Shown piece by piece: positions 6,177-63,974 of a stretch of DNA of 64,000 nt (its first letter is position 1; each line of letters opens with the position of its first letter). The stretch comes from Acidimicrobium ferrooxidans (lineage in GTDB: Bacteria; Actinomycetota; Geothermincolia; Fen-727; Anoxymicrobiaceae). The position numbers were made by a program, and so were the translations under genes. The stretch is taken from the NCBI GenBank assembly GCA_020723485.1, contig DYIU01000001.1:186001-250000 (forward strand), in the 5' to 3' direction. The notes below the pieces were generated by a model, which made no database searches, was not told the DNA's origin, and saw nothing but the letters and a program-made list of their open reading frames with translations.

Positions 6177-7486
6177 CCTTTCGTGTTGCAGGTGTTGCTG
6201 ATGTTCCTTATGCAACGAAAATGGTCTGACCCCGTCTGTTCCGTCAGGCCCGGAAAGACGAGCAGGAACAGCGCGAGCGCTGTGCATGCGATACCGTCAA
6301 TAAGCAATGCCGTCGGAGTGGAGGTGAGGTCGGAGACAAAGCCAAGCACCTGCCCGCCGATCGGGAACACCCCGACGAACATCATTATGTACAGGCTCAT
6401 GACCCTTCCCCGCAACTCCCGTTCGACATCTCCCTGCAGGAGGGTGTTGATGGTCGAGGTCGTCATGAGAAAGCTCATGCCCACGCCGAAAAGGATGAGA
6501 CAGGACAGCCAGTAGGTCCTCGAAAAGGCCAGCGCCGCCAGGCAGAGCCCGAGGGCGAGAGTGGAGGCTTTCACGACCGCCCTCTCCCCGAACCTCTCTC
6601 CAAGGGTAGTCACAAGGGGCGCGCTCGCGAACGCGCCGAGCCCCAGGATGCCCAGCAGGAGGCCGTACCCACCCGAGCCCCGGCCCAGTACGTCGCGGGC
6701 CAGCGAAGGCACCAGCACTATGAGCGAGAAGCCGAAGAAAGAGATGATCGCGATGGCGACGAGCAGGGTGACCATCCACCTCCGCCTGCCGGCGAAGAGC
6801 AGCCCCTCCTTTATGTGCGGACCCATCCCCTCCGCGGGCCGCGGGTACCCGGGGGTCTCCGTTCGGATAAGGAGCAGCGCCCCGATCACGAAGAGGAAGC
6901 TCAGGGCATTGAAGTAGAACGCGGCGGCGACTGACCACATGACGACGATGCCGCCGACGGCGGGGCCGATGAAGCGCGCCAGGTTGAACTGCGCGGCACT
7001 CAGGGCGATTGCGTTCAGCAGGTCCTCCCTCGGCACAAGGTCGGGGAGGACGGACTGCCACGCCGGGAAGTTCATCGCGAAAGCGACGCCCATGACCCCC
7101 GTGATGACCATGATCGACGGGAGGGAGGTGAGCCCGAGTGTGGAGAGCACACCCAGCAGGAGCGCGCCGAGCATCATCACCACCTGGCCCCAGAGGATGA
7201 GCTTCTTGCGGTCCAGGTAGTCGGCCAGCGAGCCCGCCGGGAGCACGAAGAACAGGACGGGCAGGTAGCTCGCCATGTTGACCGCTCCCACCCAGGCGTT
7301 CGACCCCGTCATCTCCTTCACCAGCCAGAGCAGGACCGCGGTGTGGACCCAGGTCCCTATGTTCGAGACGAACGCACCCGACCAGAGTACGCGGTAGTCG
7401 CGCCTGCCGAGCGCGGAGAGCGCGCCGCCGTGGAAGAGCGACCTTCCTCTTATCTCGTCCTTGCGCATTTTTCCAAGGGTTCTCAT
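6173..7486 (-). CDS. MFS exporter (EntS/DHA3-like)
   Basis: A 437-residue major facilitator superfamily transporter with about 12 hydrophobic segments. It carries the A-like loop motif GSLADYLDRKKLI near residues 85-97 and the start RDYRVLWSGAFVSNIGTWVHTAVLLWLV, typical of the DHA3/enterobactin-exporter branch. It is probably a proton-driven efflux pump; its substrate cannot be read from sequence. The last 14 or so residues after LTEQ are unlike the family and are encoded by a REP-like element (6212-6234), so the native C-terminus seems to have been replaced. An ATG at 7468 is an alternative start; neither has a strong ribosome site. It is divergent from the kinase at 7535. Confidence 0.9.
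   Translation of the reverse strand: MRTLGKMRKDEIRGRSLFHGGALSALGRRDYRVLWSGAFVSNIGTWVHTAVLLWLVKEMTGSNAWVGAVNMASYLPVLFFVLPAGSLADYLDRKKLILWGQVVMMLGALLLGVLSTLGLTSLPSIMVITGVMGVAFAMNFPAWQSVLPDLVPREDLLNAIALSAAQFNLARFIGPAVGGIVVMWSVAAAFYFNALSFLFVIGALLLIRTETPGYPRPAEGMGPHIKEGLLFAGRRRWMVTLLVAIAIISFFGFSLIVLVPSLARDVLGRGSGGYGLLLGILGLGAFASAPLVTTLGERFGERAVVKASTLALGLCLAALAFSRTYWLSCLILFGVGMSFLMTTSTINTLLQGDVERELRGRVMSLYIMMFVGVFPIGGQVLGFVSDLTSTPTALLIDGIACTALALFLLVFPGLTEQTGSDHFRCIRNISNTCNTKG
6212..6234. repeat. REP-like half element inside the MFS 3' end
   Basis: The sequence matches the complement of the window's repeated core GGGGTCAGGTCACTTTGTTG with a few substitutions, including GCAAC at one end and CTGACCCCG at the other. 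It is the only copy lying in a coding frame. Confidence 0.55.
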
Positions 7487-43401: not shown

Positions 43402-43423
43402 CGGGGTCAGGTCACTTTGTTGC
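43402..43423. repeat. REP-like half element
   Basis: An exact copy of the dispersed core GGGGTCAGGTCACTTTGTTG with flanking C and C, in the convergent gap between the TIG lipoprotein and the hydrolase. Confidence 0.75.
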
Positions 43424-45249: not shown

Positions 45250-46401
45250 TTACTTCGCCTTGACGCTATCGGGGAGCTTCTTCGTCAGGATGTCGGCCGC
45301 CTGCTCCACCATGTCGCCCAGCACCTCTCCAGCGGGCTTTATCTCGTTGATCATGCCCGATGCCTGCCCTGCAAAGCCCCCTATGTAGTCCTCGACGTTC
45401 TGGTCGATGAACGCGCGGAGCAGGGCGCTCGATATCATTATCTGCATCGGGAAGGGCAGCGGCGTCAGCCCGGACGCGTCCCAGGCGTCGTGGAACCGCG
45501 AGTAGATGGAGCGCAGGGTCTTGCCGGTGAACATGGTGCTCACGCGGGTGTCCTCGTCGTTGGCCTCCACTATGTGCTGCTTGATGATGTCCGGGGCACC
45601 GCCCTCCGTGGTGGCGAGGAAACGCGTCCCCACCCAGACGCCGACGCACCCCATCGCGAGCGCCCCCGCGAGGCCCCGGCCGTCCGCTATGCCACCCGCT
45701 GCCAACACGGGAACCGGGTAGGCCGCGTCGATGCAGGGGGGGACGAGCGCCATGGTGCCTATCCTCCCCGTGTGCCCGCCGGCCTCGTGGCCCTGGGCGA
45801 CCAGGAGGTCAATGCCCGAGTCAGCCATTCGCTTGGCATTCTTCGTGTTGCCGGTGATGGCGAGCACCTTCACGCCCGCGGCGTGCGCGTCGTCCACCAT
45901 CCAGCCGGGGTTTCCCAGGCCGGCGCAGAAGAGCGGTATCTTCTCATCGATGCAGACCTGCACTGCCTCCTGCGGACGCATGGTTGTGGTGTTGCTCTGC
46001 ACCACTATCTCGACCTCTGTGACCCCCAGGTCGCTGCGCATCTTGTCTATCCAGTCCTGGTACTCCTGCGGCAGGGTCTTGATGATGTCGCCGAGCGGTA
46101 TCTCGCTCGGGCCCGCCGCCAGCTCGTCTGCGCCCGCCAGGTTCTTGGGTAGGAGCAGGTCCACTCCGTAGGGCCGGTTGGTTCTGGACTTGATCTCGCG
46201 GATGGCGTCCCGCAGCTCGTCGATGGAGTAGCCGCTTCCACCCAGCACGCCCATGCCGCCCGCCTCCGAGACGGCTACCACGAGGTCGACCGGGGCGCCG
46301 GTCTCCTCGCCCAGCAGGTTGGGCCCCATCCCGGCGCTCATTATCGGGTACTCGATGTCGAGCATGTCGCAGAGACTGGTCCGTAGCACTCTCTTGCCCA
46401 T
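45250..46401 (-). CDS. Nitronate monooxygenase/FabK-like flavoprotein
   Basis: A 383-residue TIM-barrel FMN enzyme. YPIMSAGMGP opens the barrel, VDLLLPKNLAG follows, the catalytic-type His sits in LVAQGHEAGGHTGRIGT, and PVLAAGGIADGRGLAGALAMGCVGVWVGTRFL is the phosphate-binding region. Members oxidise alkyl nitronates or reduce enoyl thioesters; sequence alone does not decide. AAAGGGG precedes the ATG. Confidence 0.88.
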   Translation of the reverse strand: MGKRVLRTSLCDMLDIEYPIMSAGMGPNLLGEETGAPVDLVVAVSEAGGMGVLGGSGYSIDELRDAIREIKSRTNRPYGVDLLLPKNLAGADELAAGPSEIPLGDIIKTLPQEYQDWIDKMRSDLGVTEVEIVVQSNTTTMRPQEAVQVCIDEKIPLFCAGLGNPGWMVDDAHAAGVKVLAITGNTKNAKRMADSGIDLLVAQGHEAGGHTGRIGTMALVPPCIDAAYPVPVLAAGGIADGRGLAGALAMGCVGVWVGTRFLATTEGGAPDIIKQHIVEANDEDTRVSTMFTGKTLRSIYSRFHDAWDASGLTPLPFPMQIMISSALLRAFIDQNVEDYIGGFAGQASGMINEIKPAGEVLGDMVEQAADILTKKLPDSVKAK

Positions 46402-47157: not shown

Positions 47158-47337
47158 TCACAGGTTGGCAAACGAGAACGCGAGGGCGGCGAGCGCCATC
47201 ACTGCATAGAGCCCGGTTATGGCGATCACGAGCTTCCTCTCGAGCCCGGGCTTGCGCGACGCGATGGCCTTGACCAGCCACGCCCCCAGCCCGACTGTCA
47301 CCACAGCCGCGGCCAGCGAAAGCGTCATGAAGAACAT
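47158..47337 (-). CDS. 59-aa two-helix membrane protein
   Basis: A short gene encoding MFFMTLSLAAAVVTVGLGAW, then a basic loop (KAIASRKPGLERK), then a second hydrophobic helix (LVIAITGLYAVMALAALAF). Two transmembrane helices with the basic loop inside are predicted. The ATG at 47337 lies 11 bases after the stop of the previous gene, with AGGGG upstream, so it is the last gene of the coiled-coil operon. The frame, spacing and composition support a real gene. The family is not recognised; a holdfast or assembly subunit is possible. Confidence 0.65.
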   Translation of the reverse strand: MFFMTLSLAAAVVTVGLGAWLVKAIASRKPGLERKLVIAITGLYAVMALAALAFSFANL

Positions 47338-47348
47338 CTCATCGCCCC

Positions 47349-47861
47349 CTAGTACCTTCCCTGCATCATATTGGCTATGTCGGCCGCCGCCCCGTTCGTA
47401 CTTGCCAGACCGCCGGCCATGGCCCCGAGGGCGCCTACAGTGCGGTTTATGAAGCTGAGGGTGACGGACGTGCGCTCCGCCACGACGGACAGCGGGCCCT
47501 TGGCATCGGCGACCGCACCCTTGAGGCCGGTGATACCCGCGTTGCTCCGGTCCAGGTATTCGGCCGTTATGCCCTGAAGCGCGTTCGCGTTATCCACCAG
47601 CACGTTCATCTGCTCGACTACGGTCACCAGGGACTTCAGGTCCTCCAGCATCTTGCGCGTCTTGCCGGTCATCTCCTCGGTTGGCGTGAAGGCGCCGGTT
47701 ATGTCCTCAATGGAGCTGTTCTGTTCCTCGACTCCCTCGAGGAGCGCGGCCTGCTTCTTACCCATCTTTCCCTGGACCTCAATGACCTTGACCAGCGACA
47801 ATCCCGTTACCACGAGGCTTCCCGCTATCACCAGGTACAGGAACAGCTTGACGGCCTTCAT
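47349..47861 (-). CDS. Single-anchor helical ectodomain protein (coiled-coil operon gene 5)
   Basis: A 170-residue protein with one N-terminal transmembrane helix (about residues 5-26) and an all-helical outside region. It contains NSSIEDITGAFTPTEEMTGKTRKMLEDL; the PTEE motif recurs in the gene at 48711 and SIED in the gene at 49292, which indicates paralogy. It lacks Cys and has no known domain. GAGGTG precedes the ATG. Ten bases separate it from the previous stop. Confidence 0.8.
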   Translation of the reverse strand: MKAVKLFLYLVIAGSLVVTGLSLVKVIEVQGKMGKKQAALLEGVEEQNSSIEDITGAFTPTEEMTGKTRKMLEDLKSLVTVVEQMNVLVDNANALQGITAEYLDRSNAGITGLKGAVADAKGPLSVVAERTSVTLSFINRTVGALGAMAGGLASTNGAAADIANMMQGRY

Positions 47862-47871
47862 CGCTTACACC

Positions 47872-48693
47872 TCACTTCAACAGGTTCTTGAGCGGGTCGA
47901 GCAGCGGCGAGAGTATGTTGTTCGTCAACCCGTTGACCGTGTCGACAGTCCCATCGAGCACCTGGTCGACCCCTGTCACCAGCTCCTGCGTCAGGGTCTG
48001 GACGGGTCCGGGCGCCGACGGCGTGCTCTTGCGCGCGCCCTGCGTGGAGGACGCGGCAACCGCCGCGGCGGCCGGTTTCGGCATGAAGTCTCCCAGGCGG
48101 GAGAGTATGTCGCCCTTCATGTACGCCTTGGCCTTGAGGCTGTAAGGCTGTATCGCCGCCAGGTACCCCAGCGTCGAGTCGAACAGCCCCGAGATGTTCG
48201 ACGCGATCCCGACCATGTCGGACGTCCCCGCCACGACGGCACCGGTGAGGTCGAGCGCGGAGCCCATCGAAGCGAGCAGCTCTCCCATGACAGGGTCGAG
48301 TCCCTGCACGCCGGACAGGGTCGTGAGCAGCTTGCCGTTCAGGACAGAGATGGACTGGTTGGTCTGCGTCAGCAGCGGCTTCTGCCCGCCCATCAACTCG
48401 TTCAGCCGGTCGACCACCACGAGCTGCTCCTCGAGCAGCCCGTTCGTCTCGGCAAGCAGGTCGAGCTTCTTGTCGAGGACCGAGACGTTTGACCCGACCT
48501 CTCCCATTATGTCGTTCATGTCCTTCATGGTGCCCAGGCTTTCGTCAACCATGTTGAAGATGTTGTACTTCTTGTTGAGTTTGCCGACGGCCCCGCTGGT
48601 GGCCAGGCCGTGAGCGATGACGAAGACCCCTGCGAGCACCACGCCCATCGCGACAACCAGTGAGAACTTCTTGCCCATCGAGTATTTCCTCAT
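47872..48693 (-). CDS. Single-anchor helical ectodomain protein (coiled-coil operon gene 4)
   Basis: A 273-residue protein, the longest of the operon. A transmembrane helix (about 10-31) is followed by a helical region with repeated Leu/Asn-rich heptads (VLDKKLDLLAETNGLLEEQL, VVVDRLNELM) up to residue 200. An Ala/Ser/Pro linker (PKPAAAAVAASSTQGARKSTPSAP) follows, then a second helical part ending in a Leu/Asn/Pro-rich tail (NNILSPLLDPLKNLLK). The linker suggests it spans cell wall. GAGGAGAAG precedes the ATG. No known domain is recognised. Confidence 0.8.
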   Translation of the reverse strand: MRKYSMGKKFSLVVAMGVVLAGVFVIAHGLATSGAVGKLNKKYNIFNMVDESLGTMKDMNDIMGEVGSNVSVLDKKLDLLAETNGLLEEQLVVVDRLNELMGGQKPLLTQTNQSISVLNGKLLTTLSGVQGLDPVMGELLASMGSALDLTGAVVAGTSDMVGIASNISGLFDSTLGYLAAIQPYSLKAKAYMKGDILSRLGDFMPKPAAAAVAASSTQGARKSTPSAPGPVQTLTQELVTGVDQVLDGTVDTVNGLTNNILSPLLDPLKNLLK

Positions 48694-48710
48694 CTTCTCC
48701 TCACCTCTCC

Positions 48711-49280
48711 TCAGGGAAGGACCGGCAGCGCGAAAGTGAACAGCACGCGGTACGTCGCAGAGTTGGCCAGCTTGCTCCTCATCTGTGCCATCTCGGCGGC
48801 TATGGCGCCGTTCAGCCGGTTTATCTCGTCCAGGGTCCCCAGCGAGGCCTCGGAGGCCAGGTTGCTGCTCTCCACCGCGCTGGCAAGCTGGTTGATATAG
48901 GGTATGAGCTCGTTCAGGGATGCGGTGAGCTCATCGGTGTCAGACCTCACGGACAGGAGCACGCCGTTCGTCTCGCCGATGGTCGCCACCATCGCGGCAA
49001 GGCCGTCGCGCATCCCGCTCATACCCTCGAGGATCTCGCTTATGTAATTGCCGACAGTCCCCGCCTTGTCGTTGAGCTCCTCGGTGGGTTTGAGGGCTCC
49101 CTTCATCCCCTTGTTGAGCCCGGTCGACTCGGCGATCTGACTGTCGACCTTCACTATCTTCCTGTCCACGTTCTTCGCCACGCCGAGCGTCGCGACGGTC
49201 CCGATGGCGGTTATGAGCGCAACCGCGGCAGCCGTGGCGAGCACTCCCGTGCCCAGGACCTTTTTCATGAAAGCCTTCAT
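48711..49280 (-). CDS. Single-anchor helical ectodomain protein (coiled-coil operon gene 3)
   Basis: A 189-residue protein with one N-terminal helix (MKKVLGTGVLATAAAVALITAIGT) and a helical ectodomain. KGALKPTEELNDKAGTVGNYISEILEGM carries the PTEE motif shared with the gene at 47349. The ATG at 49280 is preferred to 49286 because AAGGAG is then seven bases upstream. The C-terminus ends FTFALPVLP; it is hydrophobic but too short for a second membrane helix. Confidence 0.8.
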   Translation of the reverse strand: MKAFMKKVLGTGVLATAAAVALITAIGTVATLGVAKNVDRKIVKVDSQIAESTGLNKGMKGALKPTEELNDKAGTVGNYISEILEGMSGMRDGLAAMVATIGETNGVLLSVRSDTDELTASLNELIPYINQLASAVESSNLASEASLGTLDEINRLNGAIAAEMAQMRSKLANSATYRVLFTFALPVLP

Positions 49281-49291
49281 CCTCATACTCC

Positions 49292-49807
49292 TTATGGAAG
49301 CGCCGGCACGGAGTTGTTGTTTGCGGCGGCCAGGTCCCTCATCTGTGCGACTTTGCCAAGCTGCTCCTTGGCGGCGGCGCCTATCTCAGCGAGGAGGCCC
49401 CCCGCGTTGCCCATGATGCTCACGACGTCCCCCATCCTGGCAGTCATCGCGCCCGCCATCTCGATGTTCGCCACGATGACGGCGTCGATGGCCTGGTTGA
49501 CAGAGAGCAGGGAGTCGTTCATCGCCTTGATCTGGTCGGCGTTCCCCACTATCTCTCCGGCGGTGCCGTGGACGGACTTCATCTTGGCCATGATCGCGTC
49601 GAACTCGGTGACCATGTCCTCGATGCTCTCGCTCTTCTGGCCCATGGCGTTCTCGTACGCGATGGCCTTGCCGAGGAGCTTGCTGTTCTGCGAAAGCTGC
49701 GAGTCCAGCTTCTTCAGCTCCCCGAGCATCATCAGCGTGTTGAACATGAAGGCGACGAGCGCAACTACCCCGGCTATCTTTCCGTACTTGATGAGCTTCT
49801 GCTTCAT
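49292..49807 (-). CDS. Single-anchor helical ectodomain protein (coiled-coil operon gene 2)
   Basis: A 171-residue protein: basic start, transmembrane helix (about 11-29), then LKKLDSQLSQNSKLLGKAIAYENAMGQKSESIEDMVTEFD and further heptads rich in Met, Ala and Asn. It shares SIED and overall plan with its neighbours. The ATG at 49807 has AGAGGTG seven bases upstream; the frame start at 49816 does not. It ends NNNSVPALP. Confidence 0.8.
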   Translation of the reverse strand: MKQKLIKYGKIAGVVALVAFMFNTLMMLGELKKLDSQLSQNSKLLGKAIAYENAMGQKSESIEDMVTEFDAIMAKMKSVHGTAGEIVGNADQIKAMNDSLLSVNQAIDAVIVANIEMAGAMTARMGDVVSIMGNAGGLLAEIGAAAKEQLGKVAQMRDLAAANNNSVPALP

Positions 49808-49818
49808 GTCACACACCT

Positions 49819-50346
49819 CTACATGTTGCTCATTATCTCGAGCGCCCGGTCCATCTTGTTGTTTATTGTCTGGTTGACCGACTTGAACGCGTTCAGATTG
49901 GCGAACAGCGCCCGGACCAGGTCGAGGGTCTGCCCGGTCATGCCGAGCTGCGTCTCCGTGTCAGACTTGAGGCCTCCCTCGACGGCGAGGACCTGCTGGG
50001 CTATGCCGAGGACCCCGGCGACCTTGCCCTTCTGCGTCTCGACGATGCCCGCAAGCTCCTTGGTCGTCGCCATCTGCTTGCCGGCCCCCTCGTTGACCTG
50101 CTTGAGAAGGACAACCGAACCGGCCAGCTGCTCCTCTTTCTTATCCAGCGCCTCGATGACATCCACCAGGTTCTCGGTCTTCTCGTTGAGGTCCGTGACC
50201 TGCTTGTTGATGTTCTTGAGCTGGCCGGTGAGGTTCATCTTGACGACGCTCTCGGGTTGCGAGCAACCCCCGAGCAGGACCGCGCCGAGCGCGGCGGCCA
50301 GCAGCGTGAGCGCCGCGATTGCTCTTTTTACGGTGGTCACTTTCAT
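49819..50346 (-). CDS. Coiled-coil lipoprotein (coiled-coil operon gene 1)
   Basis: A 175-residue protein that opens the operon. The signal peptide ends with lipobox VLLGGC, predicting lipidation at Cys28. The rest is helical with clear heptads (QLKNINKQVTDLNEKTENLVDVIEALDKKEEQL). A predicted ECF-type promoter lies 56 bases upstream. GGAGGT precedes the ATG. It may anchor the assembly in the outer leaflet while the paralogs are held by uncleaved helices. Confidence 0.82.
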   Translation of the reverse strand: MKVTTVKRAIAALTLLAAALGAVLLGGCSQPESVVKMNLTGQLKNINKQVTDLNEKTENLVDVIEALDKKEEQLAGSVVLLKQVNEGAGKQMATTKELAGIVETQKGKVAGVLGIAQQVLAVEGGLKSDTETQLGMTGQTLDLVRALFANLNAFKSVNQTINNKMDRALEIMSNM

Positions 50347-50401
50347 CGTTGCCGTACCTCCGTTGACCGCGAGGCTTTTCCGTTTCCGGCCATCAATACG
50401 G

Positions 50402-50430
50402 GCGACCCGGTTTTTTCATGCGGGGGTTCC
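50402..50430 (-). promoter_or_regulatory. Candidate ECF-type promoter of the coiled-coil operon
   Basis: On the minus strand GGAACC (50425-50430) and GGTCGC (50402-50407) are 17 bases apart, resembling ECF -35 GGAAC and -10 CGTC boxes, 56 bases before the 50346 ATG. CGGACGA/TCGTCCG (50430-50457) forms an inverted repeat just beyond. No housekeeping promoter is clear in this divergent gap. Confidence 0.35.
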
Positions 50431-50539
50431 GGACGAATGATTGCCGGCGCTCGTCCGTATGCATCTTCCGTAAGGCGGATATGTCACTCGAGGGGATTCG
50501 AGGCAAGGCCCGGGTCCCGGACACAGAAGGAGGGCGAAA

Positions 50540-51448
50540 ATGTCGAAGTTGCGCAACAGGTCGAGGCTGTGCGTCAGCCTGGCGGTTGTGGGCACGCTGG
50601 TGCTGGCGATGTCGGGCATCGCCATCGCCGAAGGCATCACCATCCCCGGCACCGAGATTCAGCTGCCGGACGTGCTGCCGCCCGGCGTGACGCAGGTCGT
50701 CGAGAACGTGACCGACTCCATCCCGGTACCCGAGCTACCGCTGCCGGGGACCGAGGCTGTGGAGGGGCTCGTCAACGAAGTGACGGGCGCGCTCGAGGTC
50801 CTGCCCGTCGACGACATCACCGGCCAGCTACCCGGCCTGAACAGCCTGCCGGTTCCGGTATCCGGTGATGCCTTGAGCAGCGTCCCAGCCGGCGCCGACT
50901 CGCTGAACCTGCTGGACCCGTCCCTGCTGGACCCGTCGAACCTGCCGTCGCCCGACGCGCTGACGGACCTGCTGGACCCGTCTCAGCTCCCGCTTCCCGC
51001 GTTCCCGACTCTGGGAGACCTGCCGATCATCAGCACTCTGCTAAACATCCTGGATCCCGCGAACCTGCCCGGGCTGGACGAGCTCCCGGTGATCAGCACC
51101 ATCCTCCCGATAATCGATTCAATCCTCGACAAGCTCGCCGAGATACCTATTCTGAAGCCCATCATAGAGCTGGTGGAGAAGCTGCTGGTCATACTGCGGC
51201 CGGTGAACCCGACACCGACACCGACGCCCGAGACACCTGAAGCGCCGACCGTGCCTTCAGCGAACGTCCCCGCGGCGGTAGCGGCGGCCGAGAGCCCGGC
51301 GGGCGAGTCGTTCGACCACCTCCCATACACGGGCGCCGATTTTACGGGTGTGCTCTTCCTGATTATGTGCCTGCTCGCGAGCGTGCTGCTCATGCACAAG
51401 GTTGAGGGCTCCGTGAAGAGGACCGGATTCAAGAAGAGCAGGATATAA
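50540..51448 (+). CDS. LPXTG cell-wall-anchored Leu/Pro/Asp-rich protein
   Basis: A 302-residue exported protein. Residues 1-30 form a signal peptide (VVGTLVLAMSGIAIAEG). Low-complexity repeats follow: LLDPSLLDPSNLPSPDALTD, LLDPSQLPLP and ILDPANLPGLDELP, plus two PVISTI/PIISTL units. A Pro/Thr linker (NPTPTPTPETPEAP) leads to the sorting signal: LPYTG at about 261-265, a hydrophobic helix and a basic tail (VKRTGFKKSRI). A sortase would cut between T and G and attach the protein to peptidoglycan or to another subunit. AGGAGGG precedes the ATG. It is divergent from the coiled-coil operon. Confidence 0.9.
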   Translation: MSKLRNRSRLCVSLAVVGTLVLAMSGIAIAEGITIPGTEIQLPDVLPPGVTQVVENVTDSIPVPELPLPGTEAVEGLVNEVTGALEVLPVDDITGQLPGLNSLPVPVSGDALSSVPAGADSLNLLDPSLLDPSNLPSPDALTDLLDPSQLPLPAFPTLGDLPIISTLLNILDPANLPGLDELPVISTILPIIDSILDKLAEIPILKPIIELVEKLLVILRPVNPTPTPTPETPEAPTVPSANVPAAVAAAESPAGESFDHLPYTGADFTGVLFLIMCLLASVLLMHKVEGSVKRTGFKKSRI

Positions 51449-51530
51449 GAAGTAAAGCTTCCACGACGGAGGGGTGGTGAGTCTGCCCAGCGTTACCGAC
51501 CCCGCTGCTCCTCCGTCACCTTCCTTTGCA

Positions 51531-51587
51531 CACCGGGGGCAGGTCACTTTGTTGCATCCAACGCAACAAAGTGACCTGACCCCGGTG
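51531..51587. terminator. REP-like full palindrome between convergent genes
   Basis: Arms 51531-51555 and 51563-51587 are complementary over 25 bases with one mismatch, around a 7-nt loop; each arm contains the dispersed core. It separates the LPXTG gene from the convergent sigma gene and can act as a terminator in both directions. Confidence 0.8.
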
Positions 51588-51596
51588 TTGCGTTCT

Positions 51597-53063
51597 CTAG
51601 AACGGCAGGAGGGTTTCCTGCAGGAACTCCACCAGGTCTCCCACGATGTTGCCCTGCTGCTCCGCCGGTTCGGCCGGCGCGCTCGGCTGCGTCTGGGCCG
51701 CCGGGGCCTGCGCGGGCGGCGTTTCCTGCTCGCCAGGCACGTCCTCGCTGACGCCCGCATCGGACGCCGCGGCGCTTTCCTGGGCGACGGGTTGACCCTG
51801 TTCGGCAGGCACGTCCGGCGGGGCCCCGGCGGTGAGAACGGGAGCCACCAGGGTATTGACCACGCCGTCGACGATATAGGTGCTGCTCACCCCCGAGTCC
51901 ACGATGACCGCTGCCAGCTGGCGCGCAGCACCCAGGCTGCAGACGCCCTGGAGCGCGCTCACCATGCCGGGCGGGAGCCCGATGGGAGAAAGAATCATGA
52001 ACACAGGGTCCGTTAGCGTGGTCAGGATGCCCCCGAGCTGAGCGATGGAGGAGTCCAGCAGCTGCCCGGTGGTAGTGAGCAGCCCGCGGGCCGTGTCACC
52101 CGGCTGGGCAAGAAGGCCCCACACGGGTCCCATCTCCTTGTCCGATGGAAGCTGCCCGGTCACATCCGCCACCGGCTTCGCCCCCGGCGACTCCTCCTCG
52201 CCGGTGGCGTTCACCGCCTCGGTCACAGCCTCCTGCCTGACGGTGGCAGCGCCGGATACGCGCTCAGCCCCGCGCGAGGGCTGCCTTGCCGTACCTGCGC
52301 TCACCACTCCCACGCAGACGAGCGACCCGACGAGCAGCAGCACCACGGCGATGTTGAGAGCGGTGCCGCCGAAGCCGACGCTCCCAGCCCCCGTGGCGAA
52401 CCCGGCCGCTCTCTTGAGCGCGGCCCTGGAAAGCGCCGATATCCTGCGTGCGAAGCTCCTGGCAAGTGCAGTAGGCAGCATCGGGAACGCCGACCACCAG
52501 CCGCCCCGCCTCTCACCCGCTTCCGCCAGGCCGCACTTGAGTTGCATCCTGGCCCGGTGCAGAAGGCTCTCCGCCGCCTTCTCCGATATGCCCATCGTCT
52601 CGGCCATCTCCCGGTAGGACATACCCTGCAGCTCGCGCAGTACGATGGCCTGCGCGTGGCGGTCGGGGAGCTTCGAGAGCACAGTCAAAACGTCGGTGCT
52701 GGTCTCCGAGGAGATGAAAACGTCCTCGGGGGAGGTCGGGCAGACGAGCATCGGGTGGGACTTCTCGGCGATGTCATCGTCGGCGCCCGCCCGCTCCTGA
52801 ATGGGCCCGTTGTTCTTGCGGAAATGGTCTATAGCCAGGTTCTGTGCGATGCGGAATATCAGGTTGTGCGTGTAATCCTCGTCGGCCAGGGGCTTTCCGC
52901 TGCGCAGGAGGCGGAAGAACACCTCCTGGGCCAGGTCCTCAGCGGCGTCACGCTGCAGGCCTTTGCTCATAAAAAAGCGCAGCACCTGCATGCGGTACTG
53001 CTCGTAGATCGTCTCGATGGATGGCGCGCCAGGCCCGCCGTCCGTGCTGCCTCGGACGTTCAC
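51597..53063 (-). CDS. ECF sigma factor fused to a membrane anchor and ectodomain
   Basis: A 488-residue protein. Region 2 is at residues 20-95 (YEQYRMQVLRFFMSKGLQRDAAEDLAQEVFFRLL) and region 4 at about 130-180 (LPDRHAQAIVLRELQGMSYREMAETMGISEKAAESLLHRARMQL). A basic linker follows, then a transmembrane helix (about 237-259, ALNIAVVLLLVGSLVCVGVV) and a 225-residue outside part, helical at first, then Pro/Ala/Gln-rich, ending EFLQETLLPF. Typical ECF factors are about 180-200 residues and are held by a separate anti-sigma protein; none adjoins here. The GTG at 53063 follows AGGGAGG. Release by proteolysis is inferred. Confidence 0.9.
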   Translation of the reverse strand: MNVRGSTDGGPGAPSIETIYEQYRMQVLRFFMSKGLQRDAAEDLAQEVFFRLLRSGKPLADEDYTHNLIFRIAQNLAIDHFRKNNGPIQERAGADDDIAEKSHPMLVCPTSPEDVFISSETSTDVLTVLSKLPDRHAQAIVLRELQGMSYREMAETMGISEKAAESLLHRARMQLKCGLAEAGERRGGWWSAFPMLPTALARSFARRISALSRAALKRAAGFATGAGSVGFGGTALNIAVVLLLVGSLVCVGVVSAGTARQPSRGAERVSGAATVRQEAVTEAVNATGEEESPGAKPVADVTGQLPSDKEMGPVWGLLAQPGDTARGLLTTTGQLLDSSIAQLGGILTTLTDPVFMILSPIGLPPGMVSALQGVCSLGAARQLAAVIVDSGVSSTYIVDGVVNTLVAPVLTAGAPPDVPAEQGQPVAQESAAASDAGVSEDVPGEQETPPAQAPAAQTQPSAPAEPAEQQGNIVGDLVEFLQETLLPF

Positions 53064-53211
53064 TCGAATCCTCCCTGTGCGACAAACCTTTATGCGACGT
53101 GCCCAGCGTCTCCTCTTTCATACCAGAAAACCGCCGGAAAGCACAATCCCGCATGTGGTCAATCTCATGGGGGGTGCCCAAAATGGCCCATTCGGGTGAT
53201 AAAACCGCCTT

Positions 53212-53853
53212 CTACCGCTCTGAGACCTCGTCCGGTCCCCGGACGGTCCCCTTGACGACAAGCCGGGAACGGGCGGAGAAGCGGGGGTGGCATGCAATGA
53301 GAGTGACCCCCGGCTCCGGGGTCGGGTCCATCACGCTCGTGTCGTCAGGGTCCACGATCAGCACCTGGTCTACGGTGTACGTGTGCCGACCACCCGCCAG
53401 GTCCACAAGGATGATTTCGTCTCCGGGACCCAGTACGTCAAGGCTCCAGAACGGCCTGGAATGCGTCGTGCGGTGGCCGGCGATGACACAGTTCCCGCGG
53501 GTGCCGGGCATCGCCGTGCCCTTGATATGCGAAGGCCCCTTATCGAGGTTGGTCTTGTCATCGACGTTTGCCATCTCTATGAGGGCCGAGTCGAGTTGGA
53601 GTTCGGGGACGATTATCCTGCCGGCCAACTCACCGGGCTGCACCTCCAGGGGAACAGCGGTCGTCACGGGCCGCATCTCCCATTTGCGGTCCAGGTCTCT
53701 GCCCGTGCGGCGCCCCTCCAGGACCTGCGAGGCGAACCAGACCGCGCCCGCTACCATGGCTGCGGCCAGGATTCCCGTCAGCAGCCACCGGAACATCCGC
53801 ATGGAGAAGGAGAGCCCTCGCAGGGCCTTTTCCCGGGCCCGCCCGCCGCTCAT
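53212..53853 (-). CDS. Class E-like sortase
   Basis: A 213-residue membrane transpeptidase. An N-terminal helix (about 20-41) anchors it. Catalytic His (about 126) is in VIAGHRTTHSRPFWSLD, Cys (about 187) in TLIACHPR and Arg (about 195) in SARSRL. The TLxxCHPxFSAxxR pattern fits actinobacterial class E sortases. It would link the LPYTG protein at 50540 to the wall. The ATG at 53853 overlaps the stop of the upstream gene (ATGA); the open frame further upstream only re-reads that gene. Regulation by the neighbouring sigma factor is inferred. Confidence 0.92.
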   Translation of the reverse strand: MSGGRAREKALRGLSFSMRMFRWLLTGILAAAMVAGAVWFASQVLEGRRTGRDLDRKWEMRPVTTAVPLEVQPGELAGRIIVPELQLDSALIEMANVDDKTNLDKGPSHIKGTAMPGTRGNCVIAGHRTTHSRPFWSLDVLGPGDEIILVDLAGGRHTYTVDQVLIVDPDDTSVMDPTPEPGVTLIACHPRFSARSRLVVKGTVRGPDEVSER

Positions 53854-54422
53854 TCGAGGCGCCTCCTGTCCCTCATTCCCAGGGATAACACGGTCAGGTA
53901 ATCCCTTACACCATCGGCCCCGCCGTCGTCCCAGCCCTGCTTGAGCTCGGGCATGTGCTCCACCACCAGGTACACGCCCTCCGCCGGCATGGACAGCCCT
54001 TCCCTGGCGAGGTCGAGGAACGTGTTGCCGGGAAGCGCGAGGTCGAGCTGGTACCGCTCCTTCAGGAGGGTCCTTATCTTTATCCATTCCCTCCTGATGC
54101 GATAGGCCTCCGCCTTGTCTGATGAAAGGAGCATCGTGAGGGAGAGGCCGGACATCACCGCCAGGAGCTGGCGGTGGTCTTCCAGCTGGTCATACGTCCG
54201 GATATCGTCCGCGGAGAGCGCCTCGAGGATTGTCCACTGCGCGAGGTCCTGGTCGAGGTCCTCGTCGTAGATCACCCCACGTTCGCCCCGGCAGAACCGC
54301 CTGTGCACGGACCGCGCCCAGCTCGCTATGAGGCAGGCGGCCTTGTACGAATCAAGGACTATCTGCTTGTTGATGATGAGGGCATCCGGGCCGGTGCCCG
54401 GGACGGAGCTCTTGTCCCCCAT
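53850..54422 (-). CDS. Helical protein coupled to the sortase
   Basis: A 190-residue soluble, mainly helical protein of unknown family: IINKQIVLDSYKAACLIASWARSVHRRF, an acidic patch (IYDEDLDQDLAQW), and a hydrophobic middle helix (LLAVMSGLSLTMLLSS) too polar at its ends to be clearly transmembrane. No signal peptide or known motif. The ATG at 54422 has AAGGGGG ten bases upstream; the TTG at 54431 is the alternative. Its stop overlaps the sortase start, so the two are made together. A role in sortase control or substrate delivery is only a guess. Confidence 0.75.
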   Translation of the reverse strand: MGDKSSVPGTGPDALIINKQIVLDSYKAACLIASWARSVHRRFCRGERGVIYDEDLDQDLAQWTILEALSADDIRTYDQLEDHRQLLAVMSGLSLTMLLSSDKAEAYRIRREWIKIRTLLKERYQLDLALPGNTFLDLAREGLSMPAEGVYLVVEHMPELKQGWDDGGADGVRDYLTVLSLGMRDRRRLE

Positions 54423-54540
54423 TGCCCGCAAGCCCCCTTTGGAGTTCTTCTAAACAGCGTGCATGTCCAGACACCAGGGAATACGGGTGTTGCGCACAAT
54501 TCATTCTCGGGAGCCGCTGCGGGAACGCCGGCGCCGGTAC

Positions 54541-56385: not shown

Positions 56386-57189
56386 TCAACTCCTGTTGAT
56401 TTTGTTATGCAAACGTCCGACACGTGATATCGTCGATTGACTCAATCCTACGTGCTCGCCGATCTCCTTGAGCGTATACCCGAAGACCATAAAGGCATTG
56501 CCAATCGCGCGATTTCGGGCTTCGATCGAATCGCACCCGTCGAACAGCTCGGCGAGCGTAGGTCGCAACCGCTCTCTAACCTTGCAGGTTGTCACCGCCC
56601 TGCCTGCATAGTATCTGGACTTCACCTCACGCTCCACCTCGAGGGAGCATCCGCTCACGAAGTCCACATAAGTATTGCGGGCCCTTCGCTCATCCTGCGA
56701 AATCAGATTGAGAACGGGCTTTACACTCAGGAAGGTTGGAGCGGGTATCATTCCGGCAATCGCGTTGTAACTGCTCCACTTCCATTCCCCCGGGTGGTTA
56801 CAGATCCCCGCTTCCACCGGATTCCTGGCAATGTATTTTAGTGCGTTCAGAAACCTGTAGTCATCTTCGATGTGCTCAGACATGAAGTGCTCGCGGACAA
56901 GTCGGCCGCTACGCCTGTGGCGCGCATTGAACCTCCGCGAGTACACGCTGTTCAGGACATGCATGCCGCCTGTCAGATCCTTTGCGCTCGTATCGACTAT
57001 CAGGTGAAAGTGATTGGTCATGAGGCAGTAGGAGCAGCATATCCACCTGAACCGGTATACGACGGAACCGAGTTGTCTGAGGAAGCAGACCCTGTCGTAT
57101 TCATCGAGAAAAATACCTCCGTCGCCTACGCCGTGTGAGGCAACGTGGAATACACCCGGAATCAGCGCGCCTCGAGCAGTCCTTGCCAT
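56386..57189 (-). CDS. REP-associated Y1 transposase (RAYT) with C-terminal helix-turn-helix
   Basis: A 267-residue IS200-like single-strand transposase. The HUH motif is H60-F-H62 in MTNHFHLIVD and the catalytic tyrosine is Tyr119 in ALKYIARNPVEAG. These enzymes nick single-stranded hairpins and mobilise REP palindromes. The C-terminal KEIGEHVGLSQSTISRVGRL is a DnaA/ParB-like helix-turn-helix found in one RAYT branch. The ATG at 57189 has GGAGGAGAGG upstream; longer frames to 57249 lack it. No IS200-type end hairpins were found beside it. GC content is lower than in the surroundings. The gap 56271-56385 before it holds nothing recognisable. Confidence 0.92.
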   Translation of the reverse strand: MARTARGALIPGVFHVASHGVGDGGIFLDEYDRVCFLRQLGSVVYRFRWICCSYCLMTNHFHLIVDTSAKDLTGGMHVLNSVYSRRFNARHRRSGRLVREHFMSEHIEDDYRFLNALKYIARNPVEAGICNHPGEWKWSSYNAIAGMIPAPTFLSVKPVLNLISQDERRARNTYVDFVSGCSLEVEREVKSRYYAGRAVTTCKVRERLRPTLAELFDGCDSIEARNRAIGNAFMVFGYTLKEIGEHVGLSQSTISRVGRLHNKINRS

Positions 57190-57285
57190 CTCCCGGTTCC
57201 TCTCCTCCATATCAGACCTAAGGAAGCCAAGCATTGGTAAGCATAACAAGCAATTTCGTTCTTGTTAAGGGGATTGTTCGGATTT

Positions 57286-58192: not shown

Positions 58193-58214
58193 GCAACAAG
58201 GTGACCTGACCCCG
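58193..58214. repeat. REP-like half element
   Basis: GCAACAAGGTGACCTGACCC then CG, the complement of the dispersed core with one substitution, next to the tRNA-Ser relic. Confidence 0.7.
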
Positions 58215-63897: not shown

Positions 63898-63974
63898 TCG
63901 GGTCAGGTCATTTTGTTGGATGGTCCCTTAGTTGACTGACACCCGTCGAAATCCAATGAAATGACCTGACGCCG
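63898..63974. repeat. REP-like palindrome pair
   Basis: Arms 63898-63921 and 63951-63974 contain GTCAGGTCATTTTGTTGGAT and its near complement (a few mismatches) around a 29-nt loop. It follows the MMPL stop. The last bases of the window (AAAGAGCCGGGG) look like the start of another hairpin, cut by the edge. Confidence 0.65.

Follow-up and report, generated by a model that had tools for sequence, protein, structure and literature searches.

Anchored coiled-coil proteins, a sortase and a membrane-tethered sigma factor in a conserved ten-gene neighbourhood of Geothermincolia

Extracytoplasmic function (ECF) sigma factors that are tethered to the membrane within a single polypeptide have precedents. 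SCO4117 of Streptomyces coelicolor, a representative of the actinobacterial group ECF52, joins an ECF sigma factor, a transmembrane (TM) helix and a proline-rich periplasmic extension in one chain; it is probably autoregulated, and proteolysis is believed to play a part in its activation (PMC8999054, PMC5826349). IutY of Pseudomonas putida (ECF243) is a sigma factor fused to its own anti-sigma, held at the membrane in one chain and released by regulated intramembrane proteolysis (PMC8999054). Here we analysed a 64-kb stretch of contig DYIU01000001.1 (the window), part of a 3.36-Mb actinobacterial genome, in which the gene for a membrane-tethered ECF sigma factor lies among genes for six membrane proteins (cc0-cc5), a protein with an LPXTG cell-wall sorting signal, a sortase and a further protein, ovl. 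A first-pass annotation had proposed that these ten neighbouring genes serve one surface structure and form one regulon. All ten genes were confirmed, with proteins 35-61% identical across three families and gene order retained. We conclude that the neighbourhood very probably represents a genuine cell-surface system that has not been described before; our literature search found no publication on this gene set.

Conservation and composition of the neighbourhood

We searched with cc5 against 59 relatives, with a cc3 profile against 31 genomes of the class Geothermincolia, and with cc3 and cc5 profiles against 396 genomes of the phylum. The cc families occurred in seven of the 31 class genomes (the window genome included), as single copies in three families and five genera, and the carriers include Candidatus Solincola tengchongensis. 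By the cc3 and cc5 profiles, none of the ~365 other phylum genomes sampled yielded a convincing case. A cc5 match in genome G003 (E = 3e-4) was rejected as an unrelated lipoprotein with no cc operon nearby, and weak partial cc3 matches beyond the class (E = 1e-4 to 5e-3) were taken as chance matches between coils. Five of the seven cc-positive genomes are metagenome-assembled, and all seven were taken to be so; some are fragmented, and the alignments are short. Occurrence is patchy within genera, with the operon in two of three genomes of g15 and two of four of g14, and therefore points to loss, transfer or incomplete assemblies.

The order cc5-cc4-cc3-cc2-cc1 was invariant in all seven genomes. 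In the window, the operon runs along the minus strand from 50346 to 47158 and closes with cc0, which was otherwise kept only in G001, G023 and G017; the gaps of 2-17 bp between its genes bear out the operon spacing first reported. The partners accompany it closely. The long sigma fusion was found in 7/7 cc-positive genomes and in one of 24 cc-negative genomes, G013 (Fisher p = 3e-6). All seven cc-positive genomes also have an LPXTG protein that either belongs to the same family or occupies the same position. A sortase lay beside the sigma gene or the cc operon in six; the seventh genome, G026, has cc1-cc5, the LPXTG gene and the sigma gene, inside which its contig stops. The co-occurrence check suggested by the first-pass annotation thus came out in its favour, and cc genes routinely lacking these partners were not observed among the seven genomes. 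The ovl gene was present in four of the 31 class genomes, all four of them among the seven cc-positive ones.

The expected synteny held in part. All ten genes of G001 (JAHJCO01) are arranged as in the window, and G016 has every module gene except cc0 and ovl, but the sigma/sortase unit is displaced in G023, G017 and G018, such that adjacency is not universal. In G023, which has cc0-cc5 and the LPXTG gene, ovl-sortase-sigma lies ~10 kb off on the same contig with a DDE transposase between, and in G017 it is on a separate contig from the cc operon; in both genomes it remains one unit. G018 has cc1-cc5 with a sortase and carries the sigma fusion on a second contig. On a third contig of that genome (L090:1-3675) we observed a second arrangement, in which an LPXTG homologue adjoins a Yip1-domain protein, a sortase and a short ECF sigma factor without an ectodomain.

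Six short anchored helical proteins had been predicted. Each of cc1-cc5 has a single N-terminal hydrophobic segment and an ectodomain in which a heptad period of 3.5 residues is strongly marked (permutation p <= 0.004 in all five cases). The label 'coiled coil' is therefore right for these five, but cc0 is a small protein with two TM segments and no coiled coil. The lipobox seen in cc5 (LLGGC in the window) fits the bacterial lipoprotein criterion of an N-terminal lipobox with a cysteine, which is present in 6/7 orthologues. Family-library scans covered nine proteins (all but cc0) and gave no above-cut-off family in Pfam or NCBIfam for cc1-cc5, ovl or the LPXTG protein; cc1 gave a weak DUF948 match (E = 0.0064, in three of seven orthologues, 17 bits against a cut-off of 37). 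A PADLOC scan of the nine proteins returned zero family matches, on which ground a known anti-phage defence system was rejected. Profile comparisons joined cc1 with cc3 and cc2 with cc5, but shuffles that preserve the TM segment and heptads equalled those scores in 1/40 and 2/40 cases, so the five cc proteins may or may not share an ancestor. A segment shared by the sigma ectodomain, the cc2 tail and the LPXTG protein was considered and rejected, as the p-values were scattered and inconsistent between genomes.

The LPXTG protein has the layout of a sortase substrate, with a hydrophobic segment at residues 11-29, the LPYTG motif first noted in its tail, a second hydrophobic stretch at 261-279 and then basic residues. 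Most orthologues carry LPYTG or LPFTG. In four orthologues (Table 1) a conserved domain of ~130 aa (LLVSLDDLLEARLxLGK...SFPGAGM) is inserted, which has no relative in Pfam or PDB and is not present in the window and G001 proteins. No Pfam domain, hence no pilin domain, was found in the window protein by the Pfam scan. In the sortase, the predicted catalytic motifs were upheld: His, Cys and Arg are all present and the Pfam Sortase domain scored 99-102 bits against a cut-off of 26.6. Among NCBIfam class models, class E scored best (103 bits, yet below its cut-off of 160) and class C reached 67.8 bits against a cut-off of 160; SrtE1 (PDB 5cuw) was among the best PDB matches. For the sortase gene, the ATG at 53853 is the most probable start, which gives a 4-bp overlap with the end of ovl, and the long upstream extension of the open reading frame (ORF) 53212-54087 is for that reason not coding. 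The overlapping helical partner proposed for the sortase was found where expected; ovl has no TM segment or signal, and this helical protein is soluble and presumably located in the cytoplasm.

A tethered sigma factor and a shared promoter element

The sigma fusion, described at first sight as a sigma factor with its own ectodomain, has Sigma70 r2 and r4_2 domains above Pfam cut-offs, followed by one TM helix and a Pro/Ala-rich tail. No zinc finger was matched in Pfam at E <= 1, the linker has no Cys pair, and the ectodomain has no Pfam domain, including no carbohydrate-binding one. Since a zinc anti-sigma domain was not found, some other protein may control this sigma factor.

A bipartite element, [AC]GAAKGAWW-N12-CCGTAT, lies upstream of the cc operon, the LPXTG gene and the ovl-sortase-sigma unit, usually 30-100 nt from the start codon. 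The motif was first spotted by eye in these upstream regions, and it is for this reason that the held-out tests carry weight. A matrix trained on other genomes placed the three sites at ranks 1-3 of ~128,000 window positions (24.9, 24.2 and 23.6 bits; next 11.5). Leave-one-genome-out matrices recovered a site 5' of cc5 in 6/7 genomes, 5' of the LPXTG gene in 4/6, and 5' of ovl or the sortase gene in 3/4 (the window, G016 and, more weakly at 6.8 bits, G001). Units outside the training set also carried it, namely ovl of G017 (24.9 bits), ovl of G023 (14.9 bits) and the lone sigma fusion of G013 (19.9 bits). The exact form GMATGAWW-N13-CGTAT has four copies in the module's own genome, three of them at the module. 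The fourth (20.4 bits; L094:3967-3994 (+), C3:663967-663992 in that genome) lies downstream of a greA-like gene and before a GMC-oxidoreductase gene, and this locus is a possible further member of the regulon.

At all strong sites CCGTAT is preceded at fixed spacing by GAA 21 nt upstream, as expected of an ECF-dependent promoter, in which -35 and -10 elements stand at a constant distance and the -10 resembles CGTA or CGTC; a distance of 21 nt from GAA to CGTA is that of sigma-W-type ECF promoters. Because the element is common to three units, the earlier proposal that the module genes form one regulon is, as a reading of promoter sequence, well supported. We consider that the tethered sigma factor is quite probably the reader of the motif. 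Positive autoregulation would then be the simplest reading, since sigma is last in the ovl-sortase-sigma unit and G013 keeps a site before its lone sigma fusion.

Table 1. Features of the window cluster and of related loci
Feature	Location	Strand	Description
cc0	47158..47337	-	59-aa two-TM membrane protein; last gene in cc operon
cc1	47349..47861	-	170 aa; N-terminal TM anchor and coiled-coil ectodomain
cc2	47872..48693	-	273 aa; TM anchor, coiled coil, Pro/Ala-rich linker, amphipathic C-terminal tail
cc3	48711..49286	-	191 aa; TM anchor and coiled coil; conserved C-terminal ...LP
cc4	49292..49816	-	TM anchor and coiled coil; conserved C-terminal PALP; ATG at 49807
cc5	49819..50346	-	lipoprotein, LLGGC lipobox, coiled-coil ectodomain; first in cc operon
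ECF-like promoter site, cc operon	50395..50422	-	CGCATGAAAAAACCGGGTCGCCCGTATT; 24.2 bits, rank 2 in window; -10 element 54 nt 5' of cc5
ECF-like promoter site, LPXTG gene	50434..50461	+	CGAATGATTGCCGGCGCTCGTCCGTATG; 23.6 bits, rank 3 in window
LPXTG (LPYTG) cell-wall sorting-signal protein	50540..51448	+	302 aa, Pro-rich
ECF sigma fusion	51597..53063	-	sigma part residues ~15-176, TM helix 238-256, ~230-aa ectodomain
Sortase	53212..53853	-	His in AGHRTT, Cys in TLIACHP, Arg in SRLVV
ovl	53850..54422	-	soluble protein; 4-bp overlap with sortase
ECF-like promoter site, ovl-sortase-sigma unit	54480..54507	-	AGAATGAATTGTGCGCAACACCCGTATT; 24.9 bits, rank 1 in window
LPXTG orthologue	L012:10470-11555		with ~130-aa domain
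LPXTG orthologue	L015:10211-11476		with ~130-aa domain
LPXTG orthologue	L016:6097-7350		with ~130-aa domain
LPXTG orthologue	L090:1-882		with ~130-aa domain
Histidine kinase locus	L014:14406-15941
Histidine kinase locus	L015:3066-6254
Histidine kinase locus	L016:1-2060
Histidine kinase locus	L013:3920-5059
Histidine kinase locus	L089:10473-13376

Other features of these neighbourhoods are recorded here as observations. In five genomes, histidine kinases, several with PAS domains, adjoin the cc operon, ovl or the sigma fusion (Table 1); none was seen beside the window cluster. In G013 (L088), a motif site at 7426-7453 (-) scoring 15.9 bits stands before ABC-2 transporter genes (7068-4991 (-)) beside the lone sigma fusion, and relatives of this transporter adjoin the cc operon in G023 and G017. 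A nitronate-monooxygenase-like gene is common to the vicinity of the G013 fusion (L088:14243-15415) and the flank of the window cluster (45250-46401), and G013 may therefore keep a remnant of the same locus. A 21-bp repeat, GGGGTCAGGTCAC(T/C)TTGTTGC, occurs in the window at 43403-43423, 51535-51583, 58193-58213 and 63899-63919 (5 matches against 0.01 expected) and looks like a repetitive extragenic palindromic (REP)-type element. At 51535-51583, in the gap that separates the LPXTG gene from the sigma gene, it stands as an almost perfect inverted pair. The window ORF 56386-57249 (-) has a Y1_Tnp match just below the Pfam cut-off (22 versus 23 bits). It likely encodes a REP-associated tyrosine transposase, and such an enzyme could explain these repeats.

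A working model and its alternatives

Conserved co-occurrence, operons, anchors, coiled coils and shared promoters are established at the level of sequence. For the locus as a whole we favour, with some confidence, a self-contained, self-regulated envelope module. The tethered ECF sigma factor would recognise the bipartite element and turn on the cc operon, the LPXTG gene and its own ovl-sortase-sigma unit, the last closing a positive feedback loop. On the outer side of the membrane, the five coiled-coil proteins, anchored by TM segments or, in one case, by lipid, would come together as a hetero-oligomeric rod or bundle; we see about even chances of such joint assembly. The dedicated sortase, for which the LPYTG protein is the likely substrate, would couple this Pro-rich protein to the peptidoglycan wall, and the coupled protein would link the wall with the coiled-coil assembly. 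The sigma ectodomain might sense the condition of this assembly or that of the wall, a mode of sensing that we regard as doubtful; the sigma domain could act while tethered or after proteolytic release, and soluble ovl may restrain or assist it. That the locus represents a new class of surface machine, in which a five-protein anchored coiled-coil hetero-oligomer is coupled to the wall via a sortase partner and its assembly state is read by the ectodomain of the module's own sigma factor, all under one promoter sequence, is a proposal we make tentatively.

Several observations weigh against this model. Matches to the motif are weak or missing at every G018 promoter and at the promoters of the LPXTG gene in G016 and G026. 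A loose form of the motif, run genome-wide over the 31 genomes, finds the cluster sites and shows no excess in cc-positive over cc-negative genomes, such that the regulon is small and the assignment to this sigma factor draws on evidence at the locus; many of the loose matches are one recurring sequence resembling 23S rRNA, and a pattern with a different spacing, run over the same genomes, missed all cluster sites and thereby acts as a control for spacing. In G001, cc5 has lost the lipobox Cys and the sorting motif of the LPXTG protein is LPSAG. Most of the examined genomes hold several ECF sigma factors and one to four sortases, and another sigma factor or sortase could therefore serve. AlphaFold models of cc3 (pLDDT 51) and of an orthologous LPXTG protein (pLDDT 37) were too poor for use.

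An alternative is an envelope-stress regulon, in which the tethered sigma factor switches on independent protectors of wall and membrane that need no contact with one another. ECF sigma factors typically control regulons of the envelope-stress type, the shared motif shows no more than co-regulation, ovl-sortase-sigma is able to move off the cc operon, and the fourth exact site lies at the greA-like/GMC-oxidoreductase locus. We nevertheless think this unlikely, as the regulon appears very small where more unlinked targets would be expected, and the five cc genes were never found apart or in part. The near-constant company of sigma fusion and cc operon, the missing zinc anti-sigma domain, which leaves room for control by another protein, and the histidine kinases flanking several loci could instead indicate a sensory array with a signalling purpose, the coiled-coil proteins acting as a sensor or clamp that keeps the tethered sigma factor inactive and the LPXTG protein reporting wall position. 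We judge this decidedly improbable, given that G013 has the sigma fusion without a cc operon and that five distinct coiled-coil proteins are many for one sensor.

A set of about six anchored helical proteins that are encoded together, one of them a lipoprotein, recalls MceA-F. ABC-2 transporters are found close to the cc operon in G023 and G017; in G013, one with its own promoter site adjoins the sigma fusion. An MCE-like conduit for lipids or solutes, with a helical hetero-oligomer forming a channel through the wall, is nonetheless very unlikely: the window cluster has no MCE domain above the Pfam cut-off and no YrbE-type permease, the only MCE match is at coil level (E = 0.52), and no transporter was found beside the cluster in the window, G001 or G016. 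An ordinary sortase-assembled pilus locus, misread, would explain why a dedicated sortase adjoins its LPXTG substrate, but with a single LPXTG protein, no pilin domain found and a sortase that scores highest with class E rather than class C, this scarcely credible reading is largely refuted.

If the self-regulated envelope module is real, we would be dealing with a surface system that contains five protein families without known relatives and has so far turned up only in one uncultured class of actinobacteria. Its sigma factor would span the membrane and apparently control a single small regulon, to which its own gene, a sortase and the probable substrate of that sortase all belong. Motif and genes are both short and clearly defined. 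A laboratory host is therefore enough for testing the proposed regulation, and there is no need to culture the native organism.

Relation to described systems

The module sigma factor resembles ECF52 in its succession of ECF sigma2/sigma4 domains, TM helix and Pro-rich extension. It differs in having neither a zinc-finger (ZAS) anti-sigma domain nor a carbohydrate-binding module, for which reason we do not file it under ECF52; moreover, its promoter motif is unlike the putative SCO4117 motif, CSGYN-17-SRHA, and it is linked with sortase and LPXTG genes. With IutY it shares the membrane tether within one chain, but IutY serves iron/siderophore cell-surface signalling in a diderm and has no sortase partner. 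At cc1, the combination of a TM segment with a helical ectodomain recalls DUF948, but the match lies below the cut-off.

The pairing of a dedicated sortase with an adjacent LPXTG substrate is that of sortase-dependent pilus and surface-protein clusters. In contrast to these clusters, the module has one non-pilin substrate, five coiled-coil proteins that are not sortase substrates, and a sortase outside class C. Class E, the substrates of which carry LAXTG, is the best NCBIfam subfamily for this sortase, but its score falls short of the curated cut-off and its probable substrate carries LPXTG. Set against these systems, the locus resembles a dedicated sortase-substrate cluster under its own sigma factor, joined by five coiled-coil proteins not found elsewhere.

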